Assembly (NCBI GenBank): GCA_018222985.1
Contig: JAAEZG010000004.1
Location: forward strand, 171,453 to 235,452
Direction of reading: 5' to 3'
DNA from: Gammaproteobacteria bacterium
GTDB lineage: Bacteria > Pseudomonadota > Gammaproteobacteria > Enterobacterales > Alteromonadaceae
DNA: 64,000 bases
Positions 12,626 through 37,090 of this stretch are shown here, piece after piece. Made by a program: the position numbers and the translations under genes. The notes under the pieces were generated by a model. The model saw only the letters and a program-made list of their open reading frames with translations. It made no database searches and had not been told where the DNA came from. The first letter of the stretch is position 1. Each line of letters opens with the position of its first letter.

Positions 12626-14356
12626 TTAATGATAATCAAACCGCAGCTGCGCAAGTGGCTGCGGTTTTGCGTATAAAAAGCCCTGCAATAAATCGCAATC
12701 GGAATCACGTAGTAGTTGGGCCTGCATCGGGTCTTCCACCCCTTCGGCAACCACGGTCAGATCGAGCTGGTGTGCTAACGCAATAATACCGGCCAAAATG
12801 GCATTGTCGCGCTTACTGTTGGCAATTTCACGCACGAAACTACGATCAATTTTTATTTTATGCACTGGCAAGAAGCGCAAGTAAGCCAAACTTGAATAGC
12901 CAGTACCGAAGTCATCAAGCGATACTTTAATGCCCATACTATCCAATGTGTGAATGGTATCGATTGCGCGCTCCTCGTCTGCCATCAGCACACTTTCAGT
13001 AATTTCTAATTCAAGGTGGGCAGGCTCAACGCCGGTTTTTTGCATAATTTCACGTACCGTTTGCAAAAAGTTGGGCTGAACAAATTGCACCGGCGAAATG
13101 TTCACAGCCACAGAAATAGATTCGCTACGTTGCTTGTTCATTTCAATAATATCATGACAGGCTTGCTCGAGTACCCAGTTCCCCATGGCGACAATTTGCC
13201 CTGACTCTTCAGCCAGTGGAATAAACTCAGCAGGCGACACCATGCCGCGTGTGGGGTGATGCCAGCGAATAAGGCTCTCGACGGCGCACACGGTTTGTGA
13301 ACCGGCACACAATATCGGTTGGTAATGAAGTTCCAGTTGCTGCTTTTCTAACGCGTCGTGAAGCTCTTGACGCAACAGTAACTTGGCACTGAGTTGCTTG
13401 GATATGTCTTGGGAGAACCAGTGGGCAGTATTACGACCATTAAGCTTAGCCTGATACATCGCCATGTCACCATGTTGAATTAAGGTGCTTGCCTCTGGAA
13501 CGACGGCTAATTTTCGTGAGGGTTCATAGGCGGCAATACCAATGCTTGAGGTAATGCTTAATGCATGCTGGCCCACAGTAAAGGGCTGCTTAAATATACC
13601 TTGCAGGCGCAGCAAAATACGCTGTGCTTCTTCGGCGTTGGCAACTTCCGGCACCAGTAAGGCAAATTCATCGGCGGCCAAACGGGCCAGCGTGTCGCCT
13701 GGGTCAAGTAATTCATTAATGCGTTCGGCAATTTGCTTCAGTAGTTCGTCACCACCGGCTAAGCCAAGCGCGTCATTCACCGCCTTGAATTTATCGATAT
13801 CGATATAATAAAGCACCAGCATTTGCTGCTGCCGCTGCGCCAGCAACAAGTCATGTTCAACACGTTCTTCAAAGAAGTCGCGGTTCAAGCAGCCTGTTAG
13901 GGCGTCGTGGGTTTGGCGGTAAGTGAGTTGGTCTTCAACCGATTTTTTATCGGTAATATCAAGTAATACCCCAATAAAATGTGACACGTCGCCATTGGCT
14001 TCGCGCACCGGTGAAATATGCACTTCATTCCAATAACTAGTGCCGTCTTTACGGTAATTGAGTACCGTTGTTTTTAATTCCAGTTGGTGTTCAAGCGCAT
14101 GAATAATTTCTTGTACAACAGCTTGATCAGAATGACCGCCCTGTAAAAAATGCAAACTTTGGCCCAGTACTTCTTCGGCCGTGTAACCGGTGGTTTTGTA
14201 AAACGATTGATTAGCGTAAACCAGTGGGCGCCCAGGCGCGCGCGCATCAATAATGACAATGCTATTAATGCTTGACTCTACCGCACGCTCCAGCAAGAAA
14301 GCTTTTTCATGCTCAATGGGGCTTAAGGCGATGACGTTATGTGGTTTAACTTCCAT
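12626..14356 (-). CDS. PAS (LOV-like, cysteine-less)-degenerate GGDEF-EAL protein, probable c-di-GMP phosphodiesterase
   Basis: PAS/PAC with GQSLHFLQGG and NYRKDGTSYWNEV; GGDEF site is AADEF; EAL catalytic residues retained (ESLIRW, AVNIS, ITES, LDDFGTGYSSL, KIDR, AEGVE, LQGFLYAKP). Confidence 0.9.
   Translation of the reverse strand: MEVKPHNVIALSPIEHEKAFLLERAVESSINSIVIIDARAPGRPLVYANQSFYKTTGYTAEEVLGQSLHFLQGGHSDQAVVQEIIHALEHQLELKTTVLNYRKDGTSYWNEVHISPVREANGDVSHFIGVLLDITDKKSVEDQLTYRQTHDALTGCLNRDFFEERVEHDLLLAQRQQQMLVLYYIDIDKFKAVNDALGLAGGDELLKQIAERINELLDPGDTLARLAADEFALLVPEVANAEEAQRILLRLQGIFKQPFTVGQHALSITSSIGIAAYEPSRKLAVVPEASTLIQHGDMAMYQAKLNGRNTAHWFSQDISKQLSAKLLLRQELHDALEKQQLELHYQPILCAGSQTVCAVESLIRWHHPTRGMVSPAEFIPLAEESGQIVAMGNWVLEQACHDIIEMNKQRSESISVAVNISPVQFVQPNFLQTVREIMQKTGVEPAHLELEITESVLMADEERAIDTIHTLDSMGIKVSLDDFGTGYSSLAYLRFLPVHKIKIDRSFVREIANSKRDNAILAGIIALAHQLDLTVVAEGVEDPMQAQLLRDSDCDLLQGFLYAKPQPLAQLRFDYH
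12638..12667 (+). terminator. Putative pckA terminator embedded in the 3' end of the convergent EAL gene
   Basis: 10-bp stem AAACCGCAGC / GCTGCGGTTT followed by a short T tract. Confidence 0.5.
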
Positions 14357-14428
14357 GCTACATCTTTACGTTAGTTTACTATGTTTAGTCGAATATACTA
14401 ATGTAAACCTTATGTAACAAGGGGTAAA

Positions 14429-15526
14429 TTATACCTTAGTGTAAGTTTTTCCAAGGCGAGTGCAGTCGCGGCCATCATGTTTGGCTTGATATAGCCCTTC
14501 ATCGGCACGGCGAACAATGGAAATAAGTGTGTCTTGCTCATTGAGTTCTGCTACCCCAACGCTAATTGTTAGGTGCAGATGTTCATCGGTGAATCGGTGT
14601 TTCGCGGTAGCCGTTCGAATTTTTTCAGCTAACTCAACAGCGCCTTCAGCGTCGGTATTTGGCGCAATAATCATAAATTCTTCGCCACCCCAACGGCCTA
14701 AAATGTCTGTGGCACGAATTTTTTCACGTAACAGCTCACTCAGTTCCATGAGCACTTGATCACCAACAAGGTGGCCGTAACTGTCATTCAGTACTTTAAA
14801 GTGATCTGTGTCTAAAATGAGTACGGAAAGCTCTGCATCATGGCGCTGCGCTCGCTGCACCTCATTCTCAAGCATCGCATCAAGGTGCGAACGGTTATGC
14901 AGTTGAGTCAGCCCATCGGTAATGGCTATGCGCTGTAATTCGGCATTGCGCTGTTCTAAAAAGGCATAGGCTTCAGCACGCGATTTTTCATAATGGCGGG
15001 CAATGGTTAACACCGCAAATAACGCACAGGTAATATTAAAAAACGCCGGTAGATTAATCGCATAGCTAGGCCAAGCGTTGGCCGACCAAACTATATAACC
15101 AATGGTTAACAGCAAAAATGGGACGGTAACTTGCAGGCCGCGGCGTATACCGAGTAAGAAAAACGCGATGGTCGGTACCATGCTTAACCAAATAAACGCG
15201 TAATTACGCCCTTGGGTTAACGCAACATAAATAACCATAAACACAATAATTGTGCCGGTTAGCCAGTTAGCACTGCGCTCTAAATCGAGGTTGCGACGAA
15301 GGTCGGTTTGAATGACTAAAATAACGGAAAAAACCGCAAGGTTGGCGACGGCGACGGTGTAATAACCGAACAAGGTAAGGTTCAGAATGACAAAAATGCC
15401 GGAATACAGTTGTAATATAAGCAGCAAGCTTTGCATTAAACGAATACGCCAATAGCGCGGATCTTGTCGATCAAACGGGTGGTGAATAACCCACCACCCT
15501 TTGTTAAGCAAAGCTTGCCAACTCAT
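14429..15526 (-). CDS. Membrane-anchored GGDEF diguanylate cyclase
   Basis: About 5-6 N-terminal TM helices, then GGDEF with intact GRWGGEEF and I-site RATD; DTDHFKVLNDSYGHLVGD. Confidence 0.92.
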   Translation of the reverse strand: MSWQALLNKGWWVIHHPFDRQDPRYWRIRLMQSLLLILQLYSGIFVILNLTLFGYYTVAVANLAVFSVILVIQTDLRRNLDLERSANWLTGTIIVFMVIYVALTQGRNYAFIWLSMVPTIAFFLLGIRRGLQVTVPFLLLTIGYIVWSANAWPSYAINLPAFFNITCALFAVLTIARHYEKSRAEAYAFLEQRNAELQRIAITDGLTQLHNRSHLDAMLENEVQRAQRHDAELSVLILDTDHFKVLNDSYGHLVGDQVLMELSELLREKIRATDILGRWGGEEFMIIAPNTDAEGAVELAEKIRTATAKHRFTDEHLHLTISVGVAELNEQDTLISIVRRADEGLYQAKHDGRDCTRLGKTYTKV

Positions 15527-21491: not shown

Positions 21492-21776
21492 ATGAAATAT
21501 CAACTTCTTGCCGAAAAAGACGTACAAATAGCATTAGCTCGTTTTCTGCGTACGCGCCGCGAACAGGAAAAATTGTCTCGCGACAAATTGTCTGAGCGCA
21601 GCACTGTCCCCGCTGCAACCATAAAAAAATTTGAGCTAACTGGGCAAATTTCGTTGCGCCAATTATTACTTCTCTGGCAGACGCTTGATGATCTGAAACG
21701 CATTTACGAATTATCACAGCTTAAAGAAGTTGAGCTCCCTCGTTCAATTGACGAGGTTTTAAATGATGACATTTAA
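21492..21776 (+). CDS. hipB: HipB-like antitoxin, XRE-family HTH
   Basis: 94 aa, HTH (LSRDKLSERSTVPAATIKKFELTGQISLRQLLLLWQTL); overlaps the downstream hipA by 14 bp. Confidence 0.82.
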   Translation: MKYQLLAEKDVQIALARFLRTRREQEKLSRDKLSERSTVPAATIKKFELTGQISLRQLLLLWQTLDDLKRIYELSQLKEVELPRSIDEVLNDDI

Positions 21777-23055
21777 GCCAGTTCAAAAACTCGAGGTTTA
21801 TCGCACATTAACTTCGGGTGATAAAGTTCATGTAGGTTCGTTAGCGCAGAATCGTCAAGGTGTTTACTTTCAATATACCGGCAATTATCTGAAGCATTTC
21901 GCGAATTTGTCACCATTCAACCTTAACTTTGATGCTTCGGTGCAAGCTGCACCTAAAGTTCCTCATTGGGGCATGCATGGCGCTTTTGCAGATGCCTTGC
22001 CCGATGGTTGGGGATTACTGTTGCAAGATCGTATTTTTCGTGCTCACGGAATTTTACCAACAAACCTAACAACCATGGATAGGCTAGCTTTTGTTGGTGA
22101 GTCGGCCTTGGGAGCGCTGTCTTTTGCGCCATCTTCTGAATATATTGAACGGCTAGAACGTGACATTGCGTTTGATGATTTAGGTTTGCATGCACAAGCT
22201 ATTTTTGATGGTCAAACCGAAGAAGTGCTGAATGAGCTTGCTGCAATGGGTAGTTCAGGTGGTGCACGACCCAAAGCCCAAGTGTATTTTGCAGGTGAAG
22301 ACTATAGCCGCTGTTGGACACAGCCAAATGATGCTACCGACGCATGGTTAGTTAAGTTTACATCGGCCAATTTACCGCTAGGGCACGAAGAGGGTATTTG
22401 TGAAGCCGTTTATTTAACACTCGCTGAGCGTGCCGGCCTGAATCCGCCAGAATGGCAACTTCTAAGTGCTCCGGAACGTTCAGGAGCAAAGAAGTGGTTA
22501 GCACTAAAGCGCTTTGATTATATTAAAAACTCAAGTGGAAAGCCGGGCAGACTGCATCTGCACAGCGCCTGTGGCTTATTGGATGCAGACTTTCGCGCAC
22601 CGAGTTTAGATTACATTGATTTAATTAAAGCGACGCGTGTCTTGTGTAAATCGCCAGCTGCGGGTCAATTACAGTTTAAGCGTGCCATGTTTAATTTGCT
22701 GGTATGTAACCATGATGATCACAGTAAAAACTGGGCCTTTTTGCAAGATGATCAAGGCGCGTGGCAGCCAGCCCCATTTTACGACATTACTTTTAGCCCG
22801 AATCCATTTGGTGAACATGCGACAGCTTATGCTGGCTTTGGTAAGCGCCCTTCACTAAAGGCTCTGCAACAGCTAGCTGAAAGTGCAGGGTATTCGCGTT
22901 GGTCCATAGCTCGCGATGTAATTTTTGAAATGATTGAGGTGGTATCTGAATTTCAGCACCTAGCCGCGAGCCATGGGGTGTCAAAGCAAACCACTCAACT
23001 GATCGCCCAGCAAATTGAAGCTGTTTGCAATGATGTTCGAAAGTTGTTGGTGTGA
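21763..23055 (+). CDS. hipA: HipA family Ser/Thr kinase toxin
   Basis: HipA signatures: HGAFADALPDGWG, GSSGGARPKA, WLVKFTSANLPLGHEEGICEAVYLTLAERAG, catalytic NHDDHSKNWAF. Confidence 0.93.
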   Translation: MMTFKPVQKLEVYRTLTSGDKVHVGSLAQNRQGVYFQYTGNYLKHFANLSPFNLNFDASVQAAPKVPHWGMHGAFADALPDGWGLLLQDRIFRAHGILPTNLTTMDRLAFVGESALGALSFAPSSEYIERLERDIAFDDLGLHAQAIFDGQTEEVLNELAAMGSSGGARPKAQVYFAGEDYSRCWTQPNDATDAWLVKFTSANLPLGHEEGICEAVYLTLAERAGLNPPEWQLLSAPERSGAKKWLALKRFDYIKNSSGKPGRLHLHSACGLLDADFRAPSLDYIDLIKATRVLCKSPAAGQLQFKRAMFNLLVCNHDDHSKNWAFLQDDQGAWQPAPFYDITFSPNPFGEHATAYAGFGKRPSLKALQQLAESAGYSRWSIARDVIFEMIEVVSEFQHLAASHGVSKQTTQLIAQQIEAVCNDVRKLLV

Positions 23056-25643: not shown

Positions 25644-26132
25644 CTAAGCTGAAGCCTTGGTCAGTTGGTAACGGATATCGGTTACAAACCAACGTTGAGA
25701 GCCGGTTGGGGTGCTGACAACAAATTCGTCATCAAGCCCCTTACCCAATGCAGCACGCGCCATAGGGGCATCAATGGAAATCACATCAGTGCGTTGATAA
25801 ATCTCGTCGGGCCCAGCAATGGTGAAGGTTTTCTCCAGGCCTTGTTCGTTTTCCACAGTGACGGTTGCGCCAAAAAACACTTTGCCGTCTTGTTGCGGCG
25901 AATAATCAACGATTTTGAGTTGCTCTAAACGCTTGCGCAAAAAGCGAATACGTTTGTCTATTTGCCGTAACTTCTGTTTATTGTATTTGTAATCGGCGTT
26001 TTCACTACGGTCACCTAGGCTGGCTGCCCAAGCGACTTTTTCAGTGGTTTCACGGCGCTCGACACGCCACAAATGGTCAAGCTCCTGCTGTAACTTCAAA
26101 TAGCCCGAGCGACTAATTAAATTGGTTTTCAT
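25644..26132 (-). CDS. greB: Transcription elongation factor GreB
   Basis: GreA/B coiled coil with basic GreB-type patch (DRSENADYKYNKQKLRQIDKRIRFLRKRLE). Confidence 0.93.
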   Translation of the reverse strand: MKTNLISRSGYLKLQQELDHLWRVERRETTEKVAWAASLGDRSENADYKYNKQKLRQIDKRIRFLRKRLEQLKIVDYSPQQDGKVFFGATVTVENEQGLEKTFTIAGPDEIYQRTDVISIDAPMARAALGKGLDDEFVVSTPTGSQRWFVTDIRYQLTKASA

Positions 26133-28762
26133 ACTGCTTTATGCCACTTCTCAAATTGTGGTGATAACTCTTCATAGGGTAAGGGTTTACTCAAGAAATA
26201 GCCTTGAATTTCGTCGCATTCAACACTTTTCAAGAACTCAATGTGCGCTTCAGACTCAACCCCTTCAGCAATAACTTGTATGCCCAAGTTGTGGCCCATG
26301 GAGATCATCGAGCGAACCAATGCCGCACTGTCGGCATCTTCGTGCACATCATTAATAAAGGCGCGGTCTATTTTCAACTGCGAGAAAGGGAAGCGCTTTA
26401 AGTATGCCAACGATGAATAACCGGTACCGAAGTCGTCTATGGCAAAGGTAACACCTGTCGCTTTAAGTGTTTGCATACGTTGCAAGGCTTCATCAGAGTT
26501 ACCGATTAATATGGATTCGGTCACCTCTATTTTTATGGCGTCAGCGCTGACTTTGTTGTCCTTAAGCGTTTGTTCAAAACGCGCAATAAAGTCGTCATGC
26601 ATAAAGGTTAGCGACGACACGTTTACCGCCATCGTTGCTTCAGGCGACACTTTGCGTAATTGGGCAACGCGCGCGCAGGCTTCATTGAGCACAAATAAGT
26701 CGAGCTCAACGATCAGGCCGTTTTGTTCGGCCATTGAAATGAACTCATCCGGAGGCACAATTTTATCGTCATGCTGCCATCGAACGAGCGCCTCCAACCC
26801 CGATAAGCAGGTTTTGCGCAAGCATTGTTGTGGTTGGTAATACACCAAAAACTCATTGTTGCGTAAGCCGTGGCGCATGGCCTGTTCAAGCTTCAAGCGG
26901 CGCTGAACCACTTGATTCATCTCAGGTTTAAATAAGCACAGCTGGTTGCGGCCAAGGCGCTTGGCTTGGTACATGGCGGTGTCGGCATTGCGCTGCAGCA
27001 CCGACACACTGTCGCCATCTTCGGGGAACATGCATACGCCGACGCTAAACGTCACTTCAATGTTACTGCCAGCCAGTTTAATCGGGGCGGCCAGTTCGCG
27101 ACGAATTTCTTCAATTTGACGCACATATTCAGCTAGGCTGCCGTTGGTCAATATCAGCATAAAGTCATCGCCAGCCACCCGAGCAGCTGTATCTGTCGGG
27201 GCAAGGCGGGCAGTCAAGCGCTGGGCTATTTGCTTTAATAGTGTATCCCCAACTTCATGGCCTAAGCTGTCGTTAATGACTTTAAAGTTGTCGATATCAA
27301 AGTAGGCAACGGCAAACTGTTCCTTATCTTCAGTCGCGTGAGCAATACTTTGTTGCAAGCGGTCAGCAAACAAGTTGCGATTCGGTAGCTCCGTTAAGCT
27401 GTCAAAATTAGCTTGGCGTTCAAGCTCTTCTTGGTAGCGTTTGTAGTCGGTAATATCGCGTACTTCCCCAACAAAGTGGGTAACTTTGCCATAGTCGTCT
27501 TCAACCGGGGCTATTGTTAGTTCGTTCCAAAACGGCGAACCGTCTTTACGATAGTTCAATAATACGGCGGTGCCTTGTTCTCCATTTGCTATCGCGCGCC
27601 GTATGCGGGCAAGGTCGCCTTGGTCGGTGTCGTCACCCTGCAGCATTCTGCAGTTTTTACCAATAATTTCTTCGGCGCTGTAGCCAGTAATACGCTCAAA
27701 CGCTGGGTTGACATAAATAGTCGGTTGGTCTGCGGTGTTTTCAGTAATTAAAATGGCGTTTGAGCTAGACTCAATGGCACGGGTACGCATACGCATCGCC
27801 GCTTCGCTGGCAACTAACGCAGAGGTACGTTTCTCAATAAGTTCTTCAAGCCCTTCAAACAAGCGAGCACGGCCTAAACTGAGTGCTAACTGGCGGCCAA
27901 TAGCGGTAAAGGCCTCCAGCATATCGCTCGACCAAATTTGATGATTGCGCTGGCCAATATATAAGTAACCTAACGGCTCGCCATCAAGCACGAGTGGTAC
28001 TTCGGCCGCATATTTTTTGGGAAATTCAGCCTTGCCAAGACGAGCCGCTTCTTTGAAGTTTTTGGGATTCTCGGCATCTTGTAAAACAATCCACAGGCTC
28101 TCAATACCGTTGAACTTAATTAAAGCGCCAAGGGCTTGTTCAACCACTTCGTCAATGGTTTGCGTGGTGGTCATTTGGCTGGCGAAGGCATACAAATTGT
28201 GTAACAACGAGTTTGAACGTGCTAATTCGTCGTGCTTTTCGCGTAGCTCGGTGTTTAAACGAATGCCCTGTTCGTAGGTGGATATTAATAAGTCTAAAAT
28301 TTGCTGGCGCGACGAGGTAATAAAATGTCGCTCGCCATCAAGTAACACTTCAAACCCCAGTTGCATGCGTTCGTGTGAACGTAGCTCATGGTTAATTAAG
28401 AAATACTGAATTCGCGACAGCAAATACTTTTCGCTAAATGGCTTCACAATAAAGTTATCGGCGCCCGAGGTTAAGCCGCGAATAACATCACGAGGGTCTG
28501 CTAACGCCGTGACCAAAATAACCGGAATATCCGCCCACTGTTTTTTCTGTTTAATATTCCGACACAGGGTGTAGCCGTCCATTTCTGGCATGACAATGTC
28601 GCTTAAAACGAGCGTTGGGCGAAATTGCTCCAGTGCCCGTAAAGCCTCTTGGCCATTGCGTGCAAGCGTGACCTTGCAGCCGTTTGACTCTAATAAAAAT
28701 TGAAGCTCGGCTGCCTGCGTCGGACTGTCTTCAACCACAAGTACGTGTGCGTCCATATTCAT
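26129..28762 (-). CDS. Response regulator REC-GAF-PAS(LOV)-degenerate GGDEF-EAL, predicted c-di-GMP phosphodiesterase
   Basis: REC (VVEDSPTQAAE...SDIVMPEMDGYT); GAF-like; LOV motif GKNCRMLQGDDTDQ and NYRKDGSPFWNEL; GGDEF site AGDDF; EAL with all catalytic motifs (LEALVRW, AVNVSS, EVTES, IDDFGTGYSSL, KIDR, AEGVE, IQGYFLSKP). Confidence 0.92.
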   Translation of the reverse strand: MNMDAHVLVVEDSPTQAAELQFLLESNGCKVTLARNGQEALRALEQFRPTLVLSDIVMPEMDGYTLCRNIKQKKQWADIPVILVTALADPRDVIRGLTSGADNFIVKPFSEKYLLSRIQYFLINHELRSHERMQLGFEVLLDGERHFITSSRQQILDLLISTYEQGIRLNTELREKHDELARSNSLLHNLYAFASQMTTTQTIDEVVEQALGALIKFNGIESLWIVLQDAENPKNFKEAARLGKAEFPKKYAAEVPLVLDGEPLGYLYIGQRNHQIWSSDMLEAFTAIGRQLALSLGRARLFEGLEELIEKRTSALVASEAAMRMRTRAIESSSNAILITENTADQPTIYVNPAFERITGYSAEEIIGKNCRMLQGDDTDQGDLARIRRAIANGEQGTAVLLNYRKDGSPFWNELTIAPVEDDYGKVTHFVGEVRDITDYKRYQEELERQANFDSLTELPNRNLFADRLQQSIAHATEDKEQFAVAYFDIDNFKVINDSLGHEVGDTLLKQIAQRLTARLAPTDTAARVAGDDFMLILTNGSLAEYVRQIEEIRRELAAPIKLAGSNIEVTFSVGVCMFPEDGDSVSVLQRNADTAMYQAKRLGRNQLCLFKPEMNQVVQRRLKLEQAMRHGLRNNEFLVYYQPQQCLRKTCLSGLEALVRWQHDDKIVPPDEFISMAEQNGLIVELDLFVLNEACARVAQLRKVSPEATMAVNVSSLTFMHDDFIARFEQTLKDNKVSADAIKIEVTESILIGNSDEALQRMQTLKATGVTFAIDDFGTGYSSLAYLKRFPFSQLKIDRAFINDVHEDADSAALVRSMISMGHNLGIQVIAEGVESEAHIEFLKSVECDEIQGYFLSKPLPYEELSPQFEKWHKAV

Positions 28763-28778
28763 GAAAATTGCCTCGTTC

Positions 28779-29840
28779 CTAAGTCTGCAATTCTTGCTGA
28801 ACTTGTTCAGCTATTTTATTCAGCATAGCGCCTATTTCTGCCGGCGTTAAAACATGGCTAACAGCCCCAGTTTTAATGGCGGCTTCTGGCATTGACGCTA
28901 TGGTTGCGGTGTCAGGTTGCTGCGCTAAGGTTAATGCACCAACTTGGTGCAATAGTTGAATGCCAACGGCTCCGTCTCTTCCCATTCCGGAAAGTTGAAC
29001 ACCAATGGCACCTTGTTGAAAGGTACGCGCAGCACTTTGCAAAGTGATGTCAGCCGATGGGCAAATGGCTTGTTGTGCGGTTCTTTCCGACAAATAAACA
29101 TTTTGGGTTGCCGAGAAAGCCAACTGGAAGCCGTCGGGTGGAATGATCACTTGATTGGGTTTGAGCGATTGGTGATTTGTGGCGACCTGAATCGTCATGT
29201 CTGTGTAGCGTTGCAACCACGGAATAAAGCTATCAGAAAAGCCGGGCGCAATATGCTGAATCAACACAATCGGTAGCGGAAATGGTGTTTGCAAGGCGCT
29301 GAAAATGTCTTTCAGCACACCGGGGCCGCCGGCCGAAGCGGCGATAATAATTACTTGGGGCTGCAAGTTAGCCACTGACGAGCGTAATTGCTCATTCAGC
29401 TCACGTTGAGGTTCCGCCGGCGTACTTGGGCGCCGGCGTCTGCGAATAACTCGCACTTCGCGCATGATTCGTAGCGTGCGAACAAGCTCATCAATTTGGC
29501 TGTCGAAATTCTCAGCGAGCGGGTTTTCTGGTTTTTCTAAAATGGCCAAAGCACCGGCTTCAAGCGCTCGAATGGCCGCTTGGTTACTTGAAACGCTGGT
29601 GCTGGCGCTTAAAATAATGATCGGAATGCCACGAATTTCTAAAATACGCTCGGTGGTTTCAAAGCCATTAATTCCAGGCATGTGCACATCCATGGTAATG
29701 ATATCAACGTGTTCACGTTGCACCATTTCAAGAGCTTGCTCACCACTTTCTGCTTCAAACACACGGTAACCGTGTTGCTGAAATACTTCGCGCAACAACA
29801 GCCTTACCACACGTGAGTCATCCACCACCAAAATATTCAT
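28779..29840 (-). CDS. CheB-type REC-methylesterase (WspF-like)
   Basis: REC (MDVHMPGINGFE), methylesterase motifs ASAGGPGVLKDIF, LIQHIAPGFSDSF, SGMGRDGAVG. Confidence 0.93.
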   Translation of the reverse strand: MNILVVDDSRVVRLLLREVFQQHGYRVFEAESGEQALEMVQREHVDIITMDVHMPGINGFETTERILEIRGIPIIILSASTSVSSNQAAIRALEAGALAILEKPENPLAENFDSQIDELVRTLRIMREVRVIRRRRRPSTPAEPQRELNEQLRSSVANLQPQVIIIAASAGGPGVLKDIFSALQTPFPLPIVLIQHIAPGFSDSFIPWLQRYTDMTIQVATNHQSLKPNQVIIPPDGFQLAFSATQNVYLSERTAQQAICPSADITLQSAARTFQQGAIGVQLSGMGRDGAVGIQLLHQVGALTLAQQPDTATIASMPEAAIKTGAVSHVLTPAEIGAMLNKIAEQVQQELQT

Positions 29841-29849
29841 GGCTATGTC

Positions 29850-31973
29850 CTATATAAGCCGCGCGATGGCATCGAGCAGGCTGTCTTGTTCAAAACTACT
29901 TTTCACTAAGTAGGCGTTTGCACCGGCTTCCAAGCCGCGCGTTTGGTCTTCCGGTGACTGCAACGCAGTCACCAAAATAACCGGCAAAGCAGTCAAACTA
30001 TGGTCGGCGCGTACTTTGCTAGTGAGCACAAAACCGTCCATTTTTGGCATTTCTATATCTGAAACTAACAGATCAAATTCGTTTTGCTTAAGAATATTCC
30101 AAGCTTCGTGGCCATCATTGGCCGTGGTGACGTTGTAGCCGGCGGCTTCAATAATTGATTTTAGTAGGCCGCGTGAAGTAAATGAATCATCGACCACCAA
30201 AATTCGGCCTTGTCGACGAGCCTGTTTATCTCGCGTTGGCACGGCGCTGGCGCCAGGCGACTGAAGACGTGTCATGCGCAGAATATCGTTCGGATTAATA
30301 ATGGGTGTTAAGTGGCCACTACTGTCTTCGGCAGCACCCATAATCAGTTGCACGGTATGCAACGGAGCGCCCAGAGGTTTCACGGTTAACTCTTGATTGC
30401 CAACAAGCTCGTCAACACACAGCGCAATGCTTTCTTGGTGCACGTGAATAACAATAACGTGATAAATAGGCTGCGTTGCTTCCGTACGCGCATACCCCAT
30501 AAAGTCGCGCATAAAAATCAGCGCAAGCTGTTGTTCGCGATAGGTAATGGTGGGGCGGCCTTTCACGCGTGTTATATCGCTGTCCCGCACCCGAATACAT
30601 TCGTCCACACTCAGTGCCGGTAGGGCGTAGGTGTCGTCATCGCAACGCACAACCACAGCTTGGAAGGTCGACATGGACGTAGGTAGGTCAATGACAAACT
30701 GGGTGCCTTGGCCAGGCTTGCTGTTAATTTTTAATTTGCCGCCAATACGCTCCAGAATTTCTTGCGCAATGGTCATGCCTATGCCGCGACCCGATACTTC
30801 GGTGATCATGTCACTGGTGGACACGCCGCTTGTGAACATGAGTAACTGCTTGTCGCGCTCAGTAAGGTGCTTTTTGTCCGCGGATACCGCCCCGTGTTTT
30901 AGCGCAACTTGGTAGAGCTTTTCTATATCGATGCCGCGACCATTGTCGCTAATCATGAGCTCAAATCGGCCGGCCACGGTTGCCTGCAAACGCACATTAA
31001 TCACGCCGCGGTTGACAATGCCGTGGTCAACGGCGTTACGCAACATGTGGGTGACCACCGGGCGCAGCTCGTCAATCATGCGTTTATCTATTTGAATGTC
31101 ATCAACGTAGGTTTCGAATTCAATGGTTTTGTGAGCGTTATCGGCTAAGTCACGCACCATGGCGGCGGTGCCATCAAGCAGCCGTGCAGCCGGTTGCAAT
31201 AGAATTTCTTCCAACTGCTCGTGCATGGTGTCCGTTTCGCGTCGTAACTGCTGCGATAAGTCATTCAGTTCACGATTTTGATCAATCAAACGGTCATGAT
31301 GGTGGCGAAACTGCACTTGGGCCCAGTCGGCATAGCTAAGTAATTCACGTACCAAACTTTGTTGGTGCGAGTTAAATTGTGGCAGCAAGCCGTGCAGCTG
31401 CTGTACGATTGTGTCCGAGCGCTGGTGGCGCTGCATGTCAATGTCACGGGTGCGAATTTGGGAATGCAGTTTACGTTGTAGCGACCCCAGTTGCTGCTGA
31501 ATTTGTTTCACAGCGTTTGAACTATGCAGCAATTCGTCGAGCTGCCGCTGATTGACGCGCACAGTGCCTTTGGCTGACTGTTTAGCCTCATTTACATTGG
31601 TTTGCGTTTGCGGAGTGCTCGTGTGCTCGCTTATCGTGTTGTCCACAATGGCGTTGCAGAGCTGTTGCAGGGCTGAAAATTGCTGTATGGACCAATTAAC
31701 TTTGTCATCGGTCAGCACGTCGGGATTATGGCGCGCATGCGACAGTAGGTTTTCCCACTCGTGGCAGAGTGCTTCATGATCGTGCAGGCCTGCCGCCCGC
31801 GCAGCACCTTTTAAGCTATGCACCTCTCGAAACAATGACTCAACAGAGCCCGTTGTTATCGAGTGACGCAACCACTCGGTGTGAATCTCATCGATAGCCT
31901 GCAGGCGTTCTTTAGCTTCAACAAAGAAACTTTCCTGCAGTTTGCGCCGCAGCGCCTCACGATCAATTGGCAT
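29850..31973 (-). CDS. Hybrid CheA histidine kinase with C-terminal REC (WspE-like)
   Basis: Hpt HSLKGAARAAG; HATPase MLRNAVDHGI, SDNGRGID, EVSGRGIGM; CheW-like domain; REC RILVVDDSFTSRG...SDIEMPKMDGF. Confidence 0.94.
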   Translation of the reverse strand: MPIDREALRRKLQESFFVEAKERLQAIDEIHTEWLRHSITTGSVESLFREVHSLKGAARAAGLHDHEALCHEWENLLSHARHNPDVLTDDKVNWSIQQFSALQQLCNAIVDNTISEHTSTPQTQTNVNEAKQSAKGTVRVNQRQLDELLHSSNAVKQIQQQLGSLQRKLHSQIRTRDIDMQRHQRSDTIVQQLHGLLPQFNSHQQSLVRELLSYADWAQVQFRHHHDRLIDQNRELNDLSQQLRRETDTMHEQLEEILLQPAARLLDGTAAMVRDLADNAHKTIEFETYVDDIQIDKRMIDELRPVVTHMLRNAVDHGIVNRGVINVRLQATVAGRFELMISDNGRGIDIEKLYQVALKHGAVSADKKHLTERDKQLLMFTSGVSTSDMITEVSGRGIGMTIAQEILERIGGKLKINSKPGQGTQFVIDLPTSMSTFQAVVVRCDDDTYALPALSVDECIRVRDSDITRVKGRPTITYREQQLALIFMRDFMGYARTEATQPIYHVIVIHVHQESIALCVDELVGNQELTVKPLGAPLHTVQLIMGAAEDSSGHLTPIINPNDILRMTRLQSPGASAVPTRDKQARRQGRILVVDDSFTSRGLLKSIIEAAGYNVTTANDGHEAWNILKQNEFDLLVSDIEMPKMDGFVLTSKVRADHSLTALPVILVTALQSPEDQTRGLEAGANAYLVKSSFEQDSLLDAIARLI

Positions 31974-31982
31974 AATAATGCT

Positions 31983-33614
31983 CTACAGCTTAAAGCGCGC
32001 AGCTAAGCTCTGCAGCTTTTGGCCCAATTGGTTCAAGCTTTTCGCGGCCTCGTCCACTTGGTGGGCGCCCGAAACGTTATCTTGTGACGCTTGGCGAATG
32101 TTTTCCATGGCTTGAGCAATTTGGTCCATGCCAATATTTTGCTGCTGGCTTGAGGTCACGATTTGCGTAGCAATTTCACTGTTTTCCTCAATTCTGTCGC
32201 CCAGGGTTTGAATGACATCGCCGCTGGTTTGCGCTTGATCATAGCCACTTTCAACGGCCTTCGAGCTCTGCTCTGCAAGCATCACCGCTTTATTCATTGC
32301 GCGCTGTATTTCGCCCAAAATAGAGCGCACCTGCATGGTGGAGTCTTTGGATTGATCGGCGAGCGCTTTCACTTCTTGTGCCACAATGGCAAAGCCCTTA
32401 CCGGCTTCACCCGCTTTGGCTGCTTCAATGCTGGCATTTACCCCAAGTAAATTTGATTTTTCGGCCAATTCACCAACCGACGCGACAATTTCCCCAATGG
32501 CCTGGCTTTGTTCGCCTAAGCGCATAATACTGGAGGCCACGGCCTGCATTTGTTCACGAATTTCCGCCATACTTGCCAGCGTTTCATCTACCGACTGGCG
32601 GCCGTGTTGGGCTTCAGCGCGGGTTTTCTTGGTGCTTTCTAACACCGCTTTCGATTTCTCGCCCGAAACATTGGCCGTTTGTTTCACTTCTTCAATGGTG
32701 GTGGCAATTTCACTAATAGCGGTTGCAGTTTCTTGGGTGCTACTGGCAACCTTGGTGGTCACCGTTAAAATTTCTTCGCTAGAGGTGGCGAGTACGTTAA
32801 TGCCGTCGTTAAGTTCTTCCACTAACTCACGCAAATAGGTACTCATTTCGCCAAAGGCCACCGCTAAGCGGCCAACTTCATCGTTGCGCCCGTTAACTTC
32901 AATGGCTGCGGGTAATTGTCCCTTACTAATATTTTCGGCCACCACGGTTAACTGCGACAGCGGCCGTGCAATGTGACGTGTCAAAATAAACGTAAGCAGT
33001 GCGCCTGCTATGAGCAAAAATACTACTGCGGCCCATAAAAACTGAGTTAGCCCTTGGTACTCGGTGTTCAAAACCGTTTGGGCATTGTTTAGGTTTTGTT
33101 CTACTAAGGCTTCAATTTCGTTCGCTTGCTCGCCAAGGGCTTCATTGAAACCGTTTGTTTGTTTCGCTATGGCCGCTAAGGTGGCGTCACTGGGATCGGC
33201 TTGCAACTCTTTGATGTAACGCTCGTTAATGGCTAACTTGTAAGTTTTGAAGGTCGTCAAAAACGTGCTGGTTGCTGAGCGCACATCTGCGGAAGGCGCA
33301 TTGAGTTGTTGCAACTGACTCACGACAGCTTCTGTGGTGGTGTTGTAGGTGGCTATTTGTGCTAAAACATCGGCGCTTTCGGTAGGGGAGGTTTTCAGTT
33401 GCGCAAGTGCCACTTCATAGCGGCGACTATAAAGTTCAATGTCTTGCACCAACAATATGCGTTGAAAGCGATTAGTGAAATCAGCACTATTGTTTTGGTA
33501 TGACGCCAGCCCCTGGCCAGCTATATATAGCGCACCAATACCTACGCTGATAATCAGCAAAAACGACAACAGCAACTTGGTACCGATGTTTATTCGCGTT
33601 CCTTGATGCGTCAT
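31983..33614 (-). CDS. Methyl-accepting chemotaxis protein (WspA-like)
   Basis: Two TM helices around a helical periplasmic domain, HAMP, signalling tip LLGVNASIEAAKAGEAGKGFAIVAQEVKALADQS. Confidence 0.93.
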   Translation of the reverse strand: MTHQGTRINIGTKLLLSFLLIISVGIGALYIAGQGLASYQNNSADFTNRFQRILLVQDIELYSRRYEVALAQLKTSPTESADVLAQIATYNTTTEAVVSQLQQLNAPSADVRSATSTFLTTFKTYKLAINERYIKELQADPSDATLAAIAKQTNGFNEALGEQANEIEALVEQNLNNAQTVLNTEYQGLTQFLWAAVVFLLIAGALLTFILTRHIARPLSQLTVVAENISKGQLPAAIEVNGRNDEVGRLAVAFGEMSTYLRELVEELNDGINVLATSSEEILTVTTKVASSTQETATAISEIATTIEEVKQTANVSGEKSKAVLESTKKTRAEAQHGRQSVDETLASMAEIREQMQAVASSIMRLGEQSQAIGEIVASVGELAEKSNLLGVNASIEAAKAGEAGKGFAIVAQEVKALADQSKDSTMQVRSILGEIQRAMNKAVMLAEQSSKAVESGYDQAQTSGDVIQTLGDRIEENSEIATQIVTSSQQQNIGMDQIAQAMENIRQASQDNVSGAHQVDEAAKSLNQLGQKLQSLAARFKL

Positions 33615-34156
33615 GATAGTTCTCTCCCCGTTAAATCTCGTAATAAAGCGCCACCATCAAGCACCACATGACGTTGTTTGGTGTCGTCATTTGTTGCATC
33701 TGCAGACGGTAAAAAGCCTTGAATAAATTGTGTGGGTACACCATTGGCGATTGATTCGGCATGGCGTATGTCATTTTTGCGGCGTGTTTGAAAACCGTGA
33801 ATACGATCTACCAAAATGCCAATTTCATGGTGTTGATCATGCAAGATCAGTAAAAAGTTTTTGTCCGATAAGTTGTGTTGTTCTAGCCCAAATAAACGCC
33901 GTAAATCAACCACAGCCACAACCCGACCGCGCACTGCAGTAATACCGCGAATCCAGTCAGGAGCTGTTGGCACCCGTGACCAACGACGCAACGGCACCAC
34001 TTCGCGGACAAATGTTTGGTCAATTGCATAGCGCTCTTGGTCAATTAAAAAGTGCAGTAATGGCACGAGCTCGCTCGGTGACTGACGCTCGGTTTGTTGC
34101 GCAAACTCTTGGTTGCGTTGTTTTAATGTGGTTATTAGCGAAGCATCAATCTGCAT
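33611..34156 (-). CDS. CheW-like scaffold protein
   Basis: CheW fold (FLIDQERYAIDQTFVREVVPLRRWSRVPTAPDWIRGITAVRGRVVAVVDLRRLFGL). Confidence 0.9.
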   Translation of the reverse strand: MQIDASLITTLKQRNQEFAQQTERQSPSELVPLLHFLIDQERYAIDQTFVREVVPLRRWSRVPTAPDWIRGITAVRGRVVAVVDLRRLFGLEQHNLSDKNFLLILHDQHHEIGILVDRIHGFQTRRKNDIRHAESIANGVPTQFIQGFLPSADATNDDTKQRHVVLDGGALLRDLTGRELS

Positions 34157-35636
34157 AGGTTACTCCAGAGTGAATGAGTTGCTCGGCTAGCTTTCGAACA
34201 TGCCCCACGCTTAACTCACCTGTGTCTTCAACTATTTGATTATCGGCTAGTTTTTGTAATAACTTTAAGCAGTGTTGCAGTAATTTTATGGCCGCCGCTG
34301 CGCGGCCCAAATGCTGACAAGCTTGGGCGCCGTAAAAATGCGCAGCTATATTATTGGCATCTAAATAGGCAGCCTTGTGGAGGGTGTCGGCGGCCAGTTG
34401 ATATTGCTGATTGAATAAGTAGTGCTGGCCAAGTAACACCTGCGCTCGCGCATTAAGTGGCTCTATAGAAACGGCTTCTGAAAACCAACTCAATGCGTCA
34501 TCAAGACGATTCTGTTGCTGCATTGATTGAGCGAGCTGCAAACAAATTTTCGCTTTTTCGCCACGACTAAGACGTGGATTTTCTAATTGCTGCTGCAAAT
34601 TAACCGCCTGCGCCAGTGCTGGTTTTGTACTTTCCGCAGCGGTGCGCGCTTTGGGTTGGCGTGACGGGGTGGTTGCGGCCAATGCGGCTTTTGTCGCCGG
34701 GCTTAACGGTCTTATTTTCGGGGTCGCTGGCGCTTTCTCAACACTGCTTTGCTGGGTATTGTGCAATTGCTCGGTTAATGATGTGCGCGGCTTGCCAGCG
34801 ACGCTACGGCCCCACACCGCAAAATTGTCACCGGCCCAGAAGCCTTCATAGCCAGCGCTGGCAGCTAAGCTAGCATCCACAGCACCGAGCAATAGCACAC
34901 CGTCGTCACGCAAGTTACTCACATACATATGAATAATTTTGCAGGCGTCGTCTTGGCTAAAGTACATCAATACATTGCGGCACAAAATTAAATCGAATGG
35001 GGCGTGGCCACGAGGCGGCTTGCATTCAATAAGGTTGAGCGGCTCAAATTGAATGCGATTACGCCATTTTTCAAGCACCACCCAATCGGTTCCCTCAGCG
35101 CTAAAGTATCGCTGCTGAAAGTTGGGCGAGGGGCTACGAAATGATCCCTGCCGGTAACGGCCAGCTTTGGCTTGTTGTAAAAACTCACGGTTCAGGTCGG
35201 TTGCGACAATGTTTAGCGAAAAATTCTGAGGTTTCAGATCATTGAGCAAAAACAGCAAACCGTACGCCTCTTCACCGGTACAGCAGCCAGCGCTCCAGCA
35301 ATCAATTTGTTTTATTTGCTGCTGTTGGCGAGTTTGAATAAGGGTAGGGAAAAAGGTCTTGGCTAACCACTCAGTCGCATTGGGGTCGCGCTGAAAATAG
35401 GTTTCACCCACGGTAAAGGCCGGCACAACTTGCTCACGCATGGTGTCGGTCCATGGCTGCTGAGCAAGTGTTAGCAGCCATTGTTCAACTTCTTCAATGT
35501 GCTGCTGTTGGGCAATCCATTTGAGTTTTCGATAAAGTTCTGCCGGCCGTGACGACACAGCGGTCAGCCCAAATTGCTGTTTCGCTTTGGCCTGTATTTG
35601 TTTTAGTGTGTCGCGGGGAATGCCTGCCTGCTTCAT
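34146..35636 (-). CDS. CheR-type methyltransferase with C-terminal TPR (WspC-like)
   Basis: CWSAGCCTGEEAYGL SAM motif, FDLILCRNVLMYF, C-terminal TPR repeats; likely start MKQAGIP at 35636 overlaps the upstream CheW stop. Confidence 0.93.
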   Translation of the reverse strand: MKQAGIPRDTLKQIQAKAKQQFGLTAVSSRPAELYRKLKWIAQQQHIEEVEQWLLTLAQQPWTDTMREQVVPAFTVGETYFQRDPNATEWLAKTFFPTLIQTRQQQQIKQIDCWSAGCCTGEEAYGLLFLLNDLKPQNFSLNIVATDLNREFLQQAKAGRYRQGSFRSPSPNFQQRYFSAEGTDWVVLEKWRNRIQFEPLNLIECKPPRGHAPFDLILCRNVLMYFSQDDACKIIHMYVSNLRDDGVLLLGAVDASLAASAGYEGFWAGDNFAVWGRSVAGKPRTSLTEQLHNTQQSSVEKAPATPKIRPLSPATKAALAATTPSRQPKARTAAESTKPALAQAVNLQQQLENPRLSRGEKAKICLQLAQSMQQQNRLDDALSWFSEAVSIEPLNARAQVLLGQHYLFNQQYQLAADTLHKAAYLDANNIAAHFYGAQACQHLGRAAAAIKLLQHCLKLLQKLADNQIVEDTGELSVGHVRKLAEQLIHSGVTYAD

Positions 35637-36118
35637 GGCGCTCCCTCCGCTGGTGCCTGCGCGGTGCCGCAATAGTCAGCCAATGCCTGTGCCAAGGCGC
35701 CTTCGTCTGCGGGGCTAAGTAATGCCTCTATATCCATAATCAGCAACAAATGGTCGTGCTTTGACAGTACCCCAGAAAGCAATGGGCTTTTAATACTTTC
35801 ATGGCTACCCTCAACAAACTGCTCGGGCTCTACTTGGCCAATTTCTTCTACAGATGACACCGGAATAAGAAGCTCTCGCGCGGTTGTGCGCAGCCAAATC
35901 ATGGGCGTCCACAAGTCAACTTTCAGTTCCGGCTGATGAAATACATGCGCTAAGTCGATAACCGGTAAAACCTGGCCGTGGATAGATACCACCCCTGCGA
36001 TATTGGCTGGGGCGCCAGGCAGCTGCGTAGGCAGTAGCATGGGTACAACTCGTAAAACGTGATCAAGTGGGACGGCGTACTGTTGCGCAGCAAGATGAAA
36101 AGGCAGCACAGATATCAA
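35633..36118 (-). CDS. CheW-like scaffold protein, first gene of the Wsp-like operon
   Basis: CheW fold (LAAQQYAVPLDHVLRVVPMLLPTQLPGAPANIAGVVSIHGQVLPVIDLAHVF). Confidence 0.9.
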   Translation of the reverse strand: MISVLPFHLAAQQYAVPLDHVLRVVPMLLPTQLPGAPANIAGVVSIHGQVLPVIDLAHVFHQPELKVDLWTPMIWLRTTARELLIPVSSVEEIGQVEPEQFVEGSHESIKSPLLSGVLSKHDHLLLIMDIEALLSPADEGALAQALADYCGTAQAPAEGAP

Positions 36119-36284: not shown

Positions 36285-37090
36285 ATGCAGCAGCGAAAAC
36301 AGCTAGACGTAGAACAGCGCAATTGCATCACTGTGCACAGAACCCAAGGTCGGCCTGTGGTTTTTGGTCATGGATTTGGCTGTGATCAGCTAATTTGGTT
36401 GTCGGTTATTGAACAGCTACCTGGAAGTGTGGCACCAATTACCTTTGATTATATGGGCTGCGGTCGCTCTGACGTCAGTGCTTATGACAAAAAAAATACG
36501 GCAGCTTTAACGGCTATGTACAAGACTTAATTGATGTTATTGAAGCGTTAAACCTGGGGGCCATTGATTATGTTGGCCATTCGGTAGGCGGCATGATTGG
36601 TATGTTAGCGGCAATGAAGCGGCCCGATTTATTCAAACAAATCATTGCTATTGGGCCGTCGCCAAAGTATCTGAACGATGCCGAATACGAAGGTGGTTTT
36701 GAGCGTGAAGACATTGCTGATTTGCTATCGATGATGGAGCGCAATCACTTTGAGTGGGCCGGCTACTTAGCACCGATTGTGATGGAAAACAGCCAACGCC
36801 CTGAGCTAGCAGAACAGCTGCGTAAAAGCTTCGCAAATTCAAACCCAGAAATATCGCGCCGGTTCGCAGAAGTACTATTTTTATCAGACAATCGGGCGTA
36901 CCTTCAAAAAGTATCGGTACCCGTTACCATAATGTATTGTGCTGTGGATGTGATTGTTCCGGTTGGCGTTATAGAATATATGGCTGCACAGATACCGCAA
37001 TGTACCCTGGTCGAGTTGAACGCTGCGGGGCATTACCCGCACGTCAGCTCACCGCAAGAAGTAAGTCAGGCAATAATGGCGATTTTATGA
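36285..37090 (+). pseudogene. RsbQ-like alpha/beta hydrolase, split by a frameshift at an A8 tract (36489-36496)
   Basis: ORF1 36285-36530 ends GCGRSDVSAYDKK then goes out of frame; -1 frame from the A-tract reads YGSFNGYVQDLIDVIEALNLGAIDYVGHSVGGMIG..., continuous to 37090. Ser (GHSVGG), Asp and His (AAGHYPHVSSP) motifs present. Confidence 0.85.

Follow-up and report, generated by a model that had tools for sequence, protein, structure and literature searches.

The 64,000-nucleotide stretch of DNA analysed here (the window), from a gammaproteobacterium of the family Alteromonadaceae, carries a chemosensory operon ending in a response regulator (RR) with both GGDEF and EAL domains. The locus raises the question of which kind of chemosensory system is encoded and what its array would do to the biofilm signal c-di-GMP. 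The preliminary description had taken the operon for a Wsp-like system with a displaced MCP gene and inverted logic, whose array lowers c-di-GMP. The seven-gene minus-strand set and order on which it was built were confirmed, each ORF having the position and Pfam domains described:

35633..36118, minus strand: CheW, first operon gene (Pfam CheW 83.3 bits; TTG start)
34146..35636, minus strand: CheR methyltransferase fused to TPR repeats (Pfam CheR 130 bits and TPR matches)
33611..34156, minus strand: second CheW (Pfam CheW 91.7 bits)
31983..33614, minus strand: MCP with two membrane segments, four-helix periplasmic domain, HAMP and signalling domain (Pfam HAMP, MCPsignal)
29850..31973, minus strand: CheA-REC hybrid kinase (HPt, HATPase, CheW-like and REC; Pfam)
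28779..29840, minus strand: CheB methylesterase with REC (Pfam CheB_methylest 173 bits)
26129..28762, minus strand: output regulator (RR), REC-(weak GAF)-LOV-GGDEF-EAL (Pfam, alignments, PDB sequence matches)
25644..26132, minus strand: greB-like gene (ORF; start and RR stop share 4 bp)

The seven ORFs (26129-36118) are tightly coupled, with junctions that are either overlaps of 4-11 bp or gaps of 9-16 bp. The CheR ORF spans 34146-35672; translation probably begins at position 35636, where an ATG shares the sequence ATGA with the CheW stop codon. The TTG start of the first CheW is also kept in the operon remnants of two sister species (G012 and G019). Because the same genes recur in the same order in many genomes, the arrangement is far beyond chance. 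Given the 4-bp overlap with the RR stop, the transcript probably includes greB as its eighth gene; greB is present in 26 of 26 genomes of the genus and is ancestral to the locus. The periplasmic domain of the MCP has a four-helix predicted structure (pLDDT 84) and matches the four-helix sensors NarQ, PcaY, Tsr and Tar, NarQ fragments first. These matches are weak (best E-value 0.026), so our claim is limited to the four-helix fold and no ligand is proposed.

Several neighbouring genes were also noted. Upstream of the operon and divergent from it lie an alpha/beta-hydrolase ORF (36286-37090, plus strand), which we take to be RsbQ-like, and a PAS-GGDEF gene. The hydrolase ORF is frameshifted, by either a mutation or a sequencing error, and the homologous frame is open in three other genomes (G012, G019 and G024). 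Two further c-di-GMP genes, one GGDEF-EAL and one GGDEF, adjoin at 12626-15526 (minus strand). The gene at 21763-23055 (plus strand), presumably HipA-like, matches nothing at the syntenic position of G012 and is represented in G019 by a 19-residue C-terminal remnant (L054:7282-7338).

To place the operon, 84,980 species genomes were scanned with the N-terminal part of the RR and the loci were annotated by BLAST. The order CheW-CheR-CheW-MCP-CheA-CheB-REC(linker)-output recurs in Pseudomonadota, Bacteroidota, Verrucomicrobiota and other phyla. It is slightly altered in some loci, such as one from Chloroflexota, and the outputs vary among kinases, GGDEF and GGDEF-EAL. ACF clusters are known to be associated with CheR-TPR and to end in a REC fused to a histidine kinase, GGDEF, EAL or both (PMC3447774). 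The window operon has the same features, a CheR-TPR identified by Pfam within the cluster and a multidomain REC-LOV-GGDEF-EAL output. Its assignment to the ACF class rests on a CheA tree, in place of the published class HMMs (MiST). In that tree the window CheA groups with those of EAL-output relatives (SH-aLRT 99), apart from the Wsp, Chp and flagellar CheA proteins (100). The protein is unusually diverged and sits on a long branch, and AU tests were therefore run. Uniting it with WspE was rejected (p-AU 0.000457, or about 0.0005), as was uniting it with flagellar CheA (p-AU 0.0017). A flagellar (F-class) CheA is thereby ruled out, and no CheZ was found in the window genome (G000). Judged by gene order and CheA phylogeny, the operon is a member of a widespread, little-studied, multi-phylum ACF family, for which its gene order is ordinary. 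A search of plasmids with the CheA sequence returned distant matches alone, at 30% identity or less.

These data bear directly on whether the operon could be a true Wsp system with rearranged genes and a phosphodiesterase in place of WspR. The component list is that of Wsp, with one MCP, two CheWs, a CheR-TPR, a CheA-REC, a CheB and a multidomain RR, and the phosphorelay logic is probably alike. However, Wsp has a defining wspA-F synteny and no outputs other than WspR or WspH (PMC8552884). Its MCP gene comes first and that of the window operon fourth, its output is a REC-GGDEF (WspR) or a hybrid kinase (WspH) rather than a REC-LOV-GGDEF-EAL, and its CheA belongs to a different clade. The gene order of the window operon is distinct and conserved across many phyla. 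In addition, a true wsp operon (MCP first, REC-GGDEF last; L156 and L157) stands beside an operon of the present type in each of two Pseudomonas genomes. A rearranged Wsp is ruled out by the CheA tree and AU test, the gene order and this co-occurrence, leaving descent from Wsp highly improbable. The idea of a displaced MCP and an inverted Wsp logic was thus not upheld, the order being standard for a separate ACF family, while the two analyses that had been called for, a search for the same order in relatives and a class placement of CheA, gave recurrence across several phyla and ACF-family, non-flagellar relatives.

The RR consists of REC (residues 1-122), a linker (123-195), a shortened GAF-like region (196-305), LOV (325-440), GGDEF (446-608) and EAL (620-866). 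Every catalytic motif residue (EAL, N, E, DD, K, E, Q) is present in the EAL domain, whose PDB sequence matches to MorA and MucR extend over its whole length. The A-site of the GGDEF domain reads AGDDF, outside the pattern [GAS]G[DE]EF; in other respects the domain aligns well with solved cyclases. The preliminary description was right about both this degenerate site and the complete EAL site; we find that the RxxD I-site is also gone (APTD). Single variants of each kind, AGDEF in Vibrio cholerae VCA0965 and GGDDF in a Geobacter enzyme, are reported to be active (PMC3974145, PMC8835794), which makes inactivity of AGDDF likely rather than proven. P. aeruginosa PA3258 (GGDDF/EAL) is reported to have no cyclase effect, and our literature search found no AGDDF cyclase. 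From these residues, loss of cyclase function is likely, and the net function of the RR is likely to be that of a CheA-controlled c-di-GMP phosphodiesterase.

The two further inputs that had been attributed to the RR, GAF and LOV, fared differently. The GAF_2 match, at 20.1 bits, falls short of the 28.6 that Pfam requires. Of 18 columns invariant in the relatives, 9 are changed, the cysteines of the relatives among them. In an AlphaFold2 model the region forms a small GAF-like sheet, predicted with moderate confidence. Given the sub-threshold score and the loss of half of the invariant columns, a second live input through GAF is doubtful. The LOV domain has the adduct cysteine Cys371 within NCRxLQ and the FMN-contact residues (N370, C371, R372, Q375, R388, N403 and N413), and the best PDB matches of the PAS segment include known LOV proteins. 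This LOV argument does not use the AlphaFold2 model of residues 1-450, which is of low confidence overall (pTM 0.37) and models LOV poorly. The conserved active-site glutamine is replaced by Val434, a point by which the earlier account of a LOV input needs to be qualified. In the LOV domains of the relatives this position is Leu in seven Pseudomonas/Stutzerimonas loci and two others (L190 and L191), and Phe in L049. Some 350 natural glutamine-deficient LOV receptors are known and the glutamine is reported to be dispensable; a LOV-GGDEF-EAL protein of Mesorhizobium loti, which lacks the glutamine, shows blue-light repression as a LOV-GGDEF fragment (PMC9098866). These receptors share with the window RR the reactive cysteine, the replaced glutamine and the LOV-GGDEF-EAL layout. 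The M. loti protein has Met at the glutamine site and an active cyclase (PMC9098866), whereas the window RR has Val, and its LOV follows a REC within a chemosensory operon. Val434 may attenuate the response, but a light input through this LOV is possible on the residues present.

The LOV-GGDEF-EAL output is shared with seven Pseudomonas/Stutzerimonas loci (L057-L063) and some Alteromonadaceae (L190), and so is no peculiarity of the window. These loci have the same operon and the same REC-linker-GAF-LOV-GGDEF-EAL core, with approximately 46-60% identity over the REC-linker-GAF query. They keep GGDEF or SGDEF, the RxxD motif, the PAS domain ahead of LOV, the cysteines of GAF and, as a rule, a REC at the C-terminus, all of which the window RR has lost; most of the C-terminal REC is also missing in L190. 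The RR was compared with 12 relatives, ten of which, all but L050 and L051, were scored at the A-site and I-site. AGDDF is found in the window RR and in none of the 12 relatives, and absence of RxxD in the window RR and in none of those scored, with [GS]GDEF and RxxD kept in 10 of 10; an LGGDEF motif is visible in the alignment of L050 and L051, which lack LOV. The LOV-bearing relatives have the layout REC-GAF-PAS-LOV-GGDEF-EAL(-REC) with an intact cyclase site. Invariant columns are changed in the window RR at 1 of 51 positions in REC, 4 of 48 in LOV, 6 of 57 in GGDEF, 7 of 77 in EAL and 9 of 18 in GAF, and the catalytic residues of REC, LOV and EAL are kept. The low counts for REC and LOV make both of these inputs look constrained. 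The RR thus looks like a copy trimmed down to c-di-GMP-destroying activity alone. From this comparison its predicted phosphodiesterase output was not made by inverting WspR, the cyclase site being intact in the LOV-bearing relatives and degenerated here.

Such an EAL-only-looking output is not unique either: four betaproteobacterial operon relatives (L064, L066, L069 and L133) have a fully degenerate SAD[YC]F together with an intact EAL motif set. A published survey found just two outputs joining REC to both GGDEF and EAL (PMC3447774), and in our literature searches no ACF-class CheR-TPR operon was described with a LOV-bearing output. The LOV-bearing, trimmed output is described here as a variant inside an already known ACF family. 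Within this family, a relative from a Pseudomonas metagenome-assembled genome was seen to have two tandem MCP genes in the operon (L060:2993-6441).

The window genome comprises 2.44 Mb (G+C 49%, 94% complete), and statements on the whole genome rest on family searches. Flagellins are present and the single MCP is that of the operon; no other CheW, other MCP or CheZ was found by these searches in the 94% complete genome, in which a second chemosensory system could be missed for that reason. The operon therefore seems, from gene content, to be the sole chemosensory system found in this flagellated genome, with ordinary chemotaxis absent. A PilZ-domain match on contig C14 (G000:C14:53203-57276), approximately 0.6 kb from three tandem flagellin genes, is plausible as a candidate c-di-GMP effector.

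Among the 26 genomes of the genus, CheW was found only in the window genome and in G020, where it belongs to an F-class set, apart from remnants in G012 and G019. The remnants are at the same locus as the window operon, with flanking proteins that are mostly more than 90% identical. The deletions differ in their breakpoints and extend from the first gene as far as the end of the RR or to just before greB. Recent acquisition by the window species alone is ruled out by these same-locus remnants, and the whole operon was deleted twice in sister species. Across the family, an RR of the window kind occurs in 6 of 397 genomes, in one of which (G215) the regulator is of the histidine-kinase type. In G275 (L191) an orphan RR with the layout REC-GAF-PAS-LOV-GGDEF-EAL-REC remains, the rest of the operon being absent from the 19 kb read. 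The only che remains in that region are a short CheB-like fragment, and the REC acid pocket there reads VVDS. Together these observations indicate that the operon is patchy and has been repeatedly lost.

We propose that the operon encodes a self-contained ACF chemosensory pathway whose CheA controls the EAL phosphodiesterase of the terminal RR and lowers c-di-GMP, a reading to which we give a probability of about 0.66. The single MCP, with its four-helix periplasmic sensor, would form an array with the two CheWs and CheA-REC, and CheR-TPR and CheB would adapt it. CheA would pass phosphate to the REC of the RR and so control the EAL domain, activation being the simplest case, such that kinase-on signalling would bring c-di-GMP down. 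The REC fused to CheA may serve as a phosphate sink. The degenerate GGDEF domain is probably no cyclase and is perhaps an allosteric GTP-binding module, and LOV may act as a blue-light gate on the enzyme. Cells would, as a likely consequence, shift between a sessile and a flagellar state. What survives of the preliminary description is the predicted lowering of c-di-GMP, in so far as the sequences support a non-flagellar operon whose RR should be a net phosphodiesterase in this species, and what falls is its derivation as an inverted Wsp. There is precedent for chemosensory control of a phosphodiesterase in P. aeruginosa, in which CheA controls Pch, a c-di-GMP-lowering EAL enzyme that resembles the window RR in having a degenerate GGDEF and PAS/GAF domains (PMC3861689). 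Pch is recruited by the CheA of flagellar chemotaxis and lacks a REC (PMC3861689), whereas the window RR has a fused REC and a dedicated array.

The evidence was also weighed against three other accounts of function. It is unlikely that a LOV-gated phosphodiesterase is the main function, with an array that merely tunes it and light outweighing the MCP signal. The orphan LOV-GGDEF-EAL RR of G275, which has no array in the region read, and the blue-light response of the M. loti fragment (PMC9098866) speak for this account, but REC is conserved as much as LOV in the window RR and Val434 may weaken the response to light. The operon might instead be a decaying relic whose ORFs are open and whose array no longer signals. 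The long branch of CheA and the deletions in two sister species suggest that the operon may be under relaxed selection. Changes are found in 81 of 273 family-invariant columns of CheA, which has also lost approximately 11 residues after the N box, and in 22 of 58 of the second CheW, and G275 keeps its RR without the rest of the operon. Against decay, 7 of 7 ORFs are intact, the motifs for phosphorylation (including the HPt His and the N, G1 and G2 motifs of CheA), methylation and hydrolysis are kept, and REC and LOV of the RR are nearly unchanged, so that we regard a relic as quite unlikely.

Also quite unlikely, in our estimate, is an RR that is bifunctional or a net cyclase, in which AGDDF is active and the array raises c-di-GMP or its sign switches with phosphorylation or light. 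The activity of the single AGDEF and GGDDF variants, the otherwise good alignment of the domain with solved cyclases and the intact GGDEF of the relatives would permit it. However, two A-site substitutions are here combined with loss of the I-site, the window RR being the only family member in the comparison to show either, and the literature on AGDDF and PA3258 described above offers no cyclase of this kind. A CheA-controlled phosphodiesterase is therefore preferred.

The family to which the operon belongs would constitute a second, apparently uncharacterised chemosensory route to c-di-GMP control, distinct from Wsp and present even in Wsp-bearing Pseudomonas. The intact, bifunctional-looking output of the Pseudomonas operons and the trimmed, EAL-only-looking output of the window form a natural pair, suited to the question of how the balance of c-di-GMP synthesis and breakdown depends on REC phosphorylation and LOV. 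More tentatively, the array and its light-gated phosphodiesterase might be the sole array-based control of motility in a flagellated lineage without CheY-type chemotaxis. Chemical and light signals would then merge in one enzyme and steer the choice to swim or settle by way of c-di-GMP rather than CheY and the motor. A genome in which the one array detected has such an output would offer a simple setting for the question whether c-di-GMP can replace CheY.
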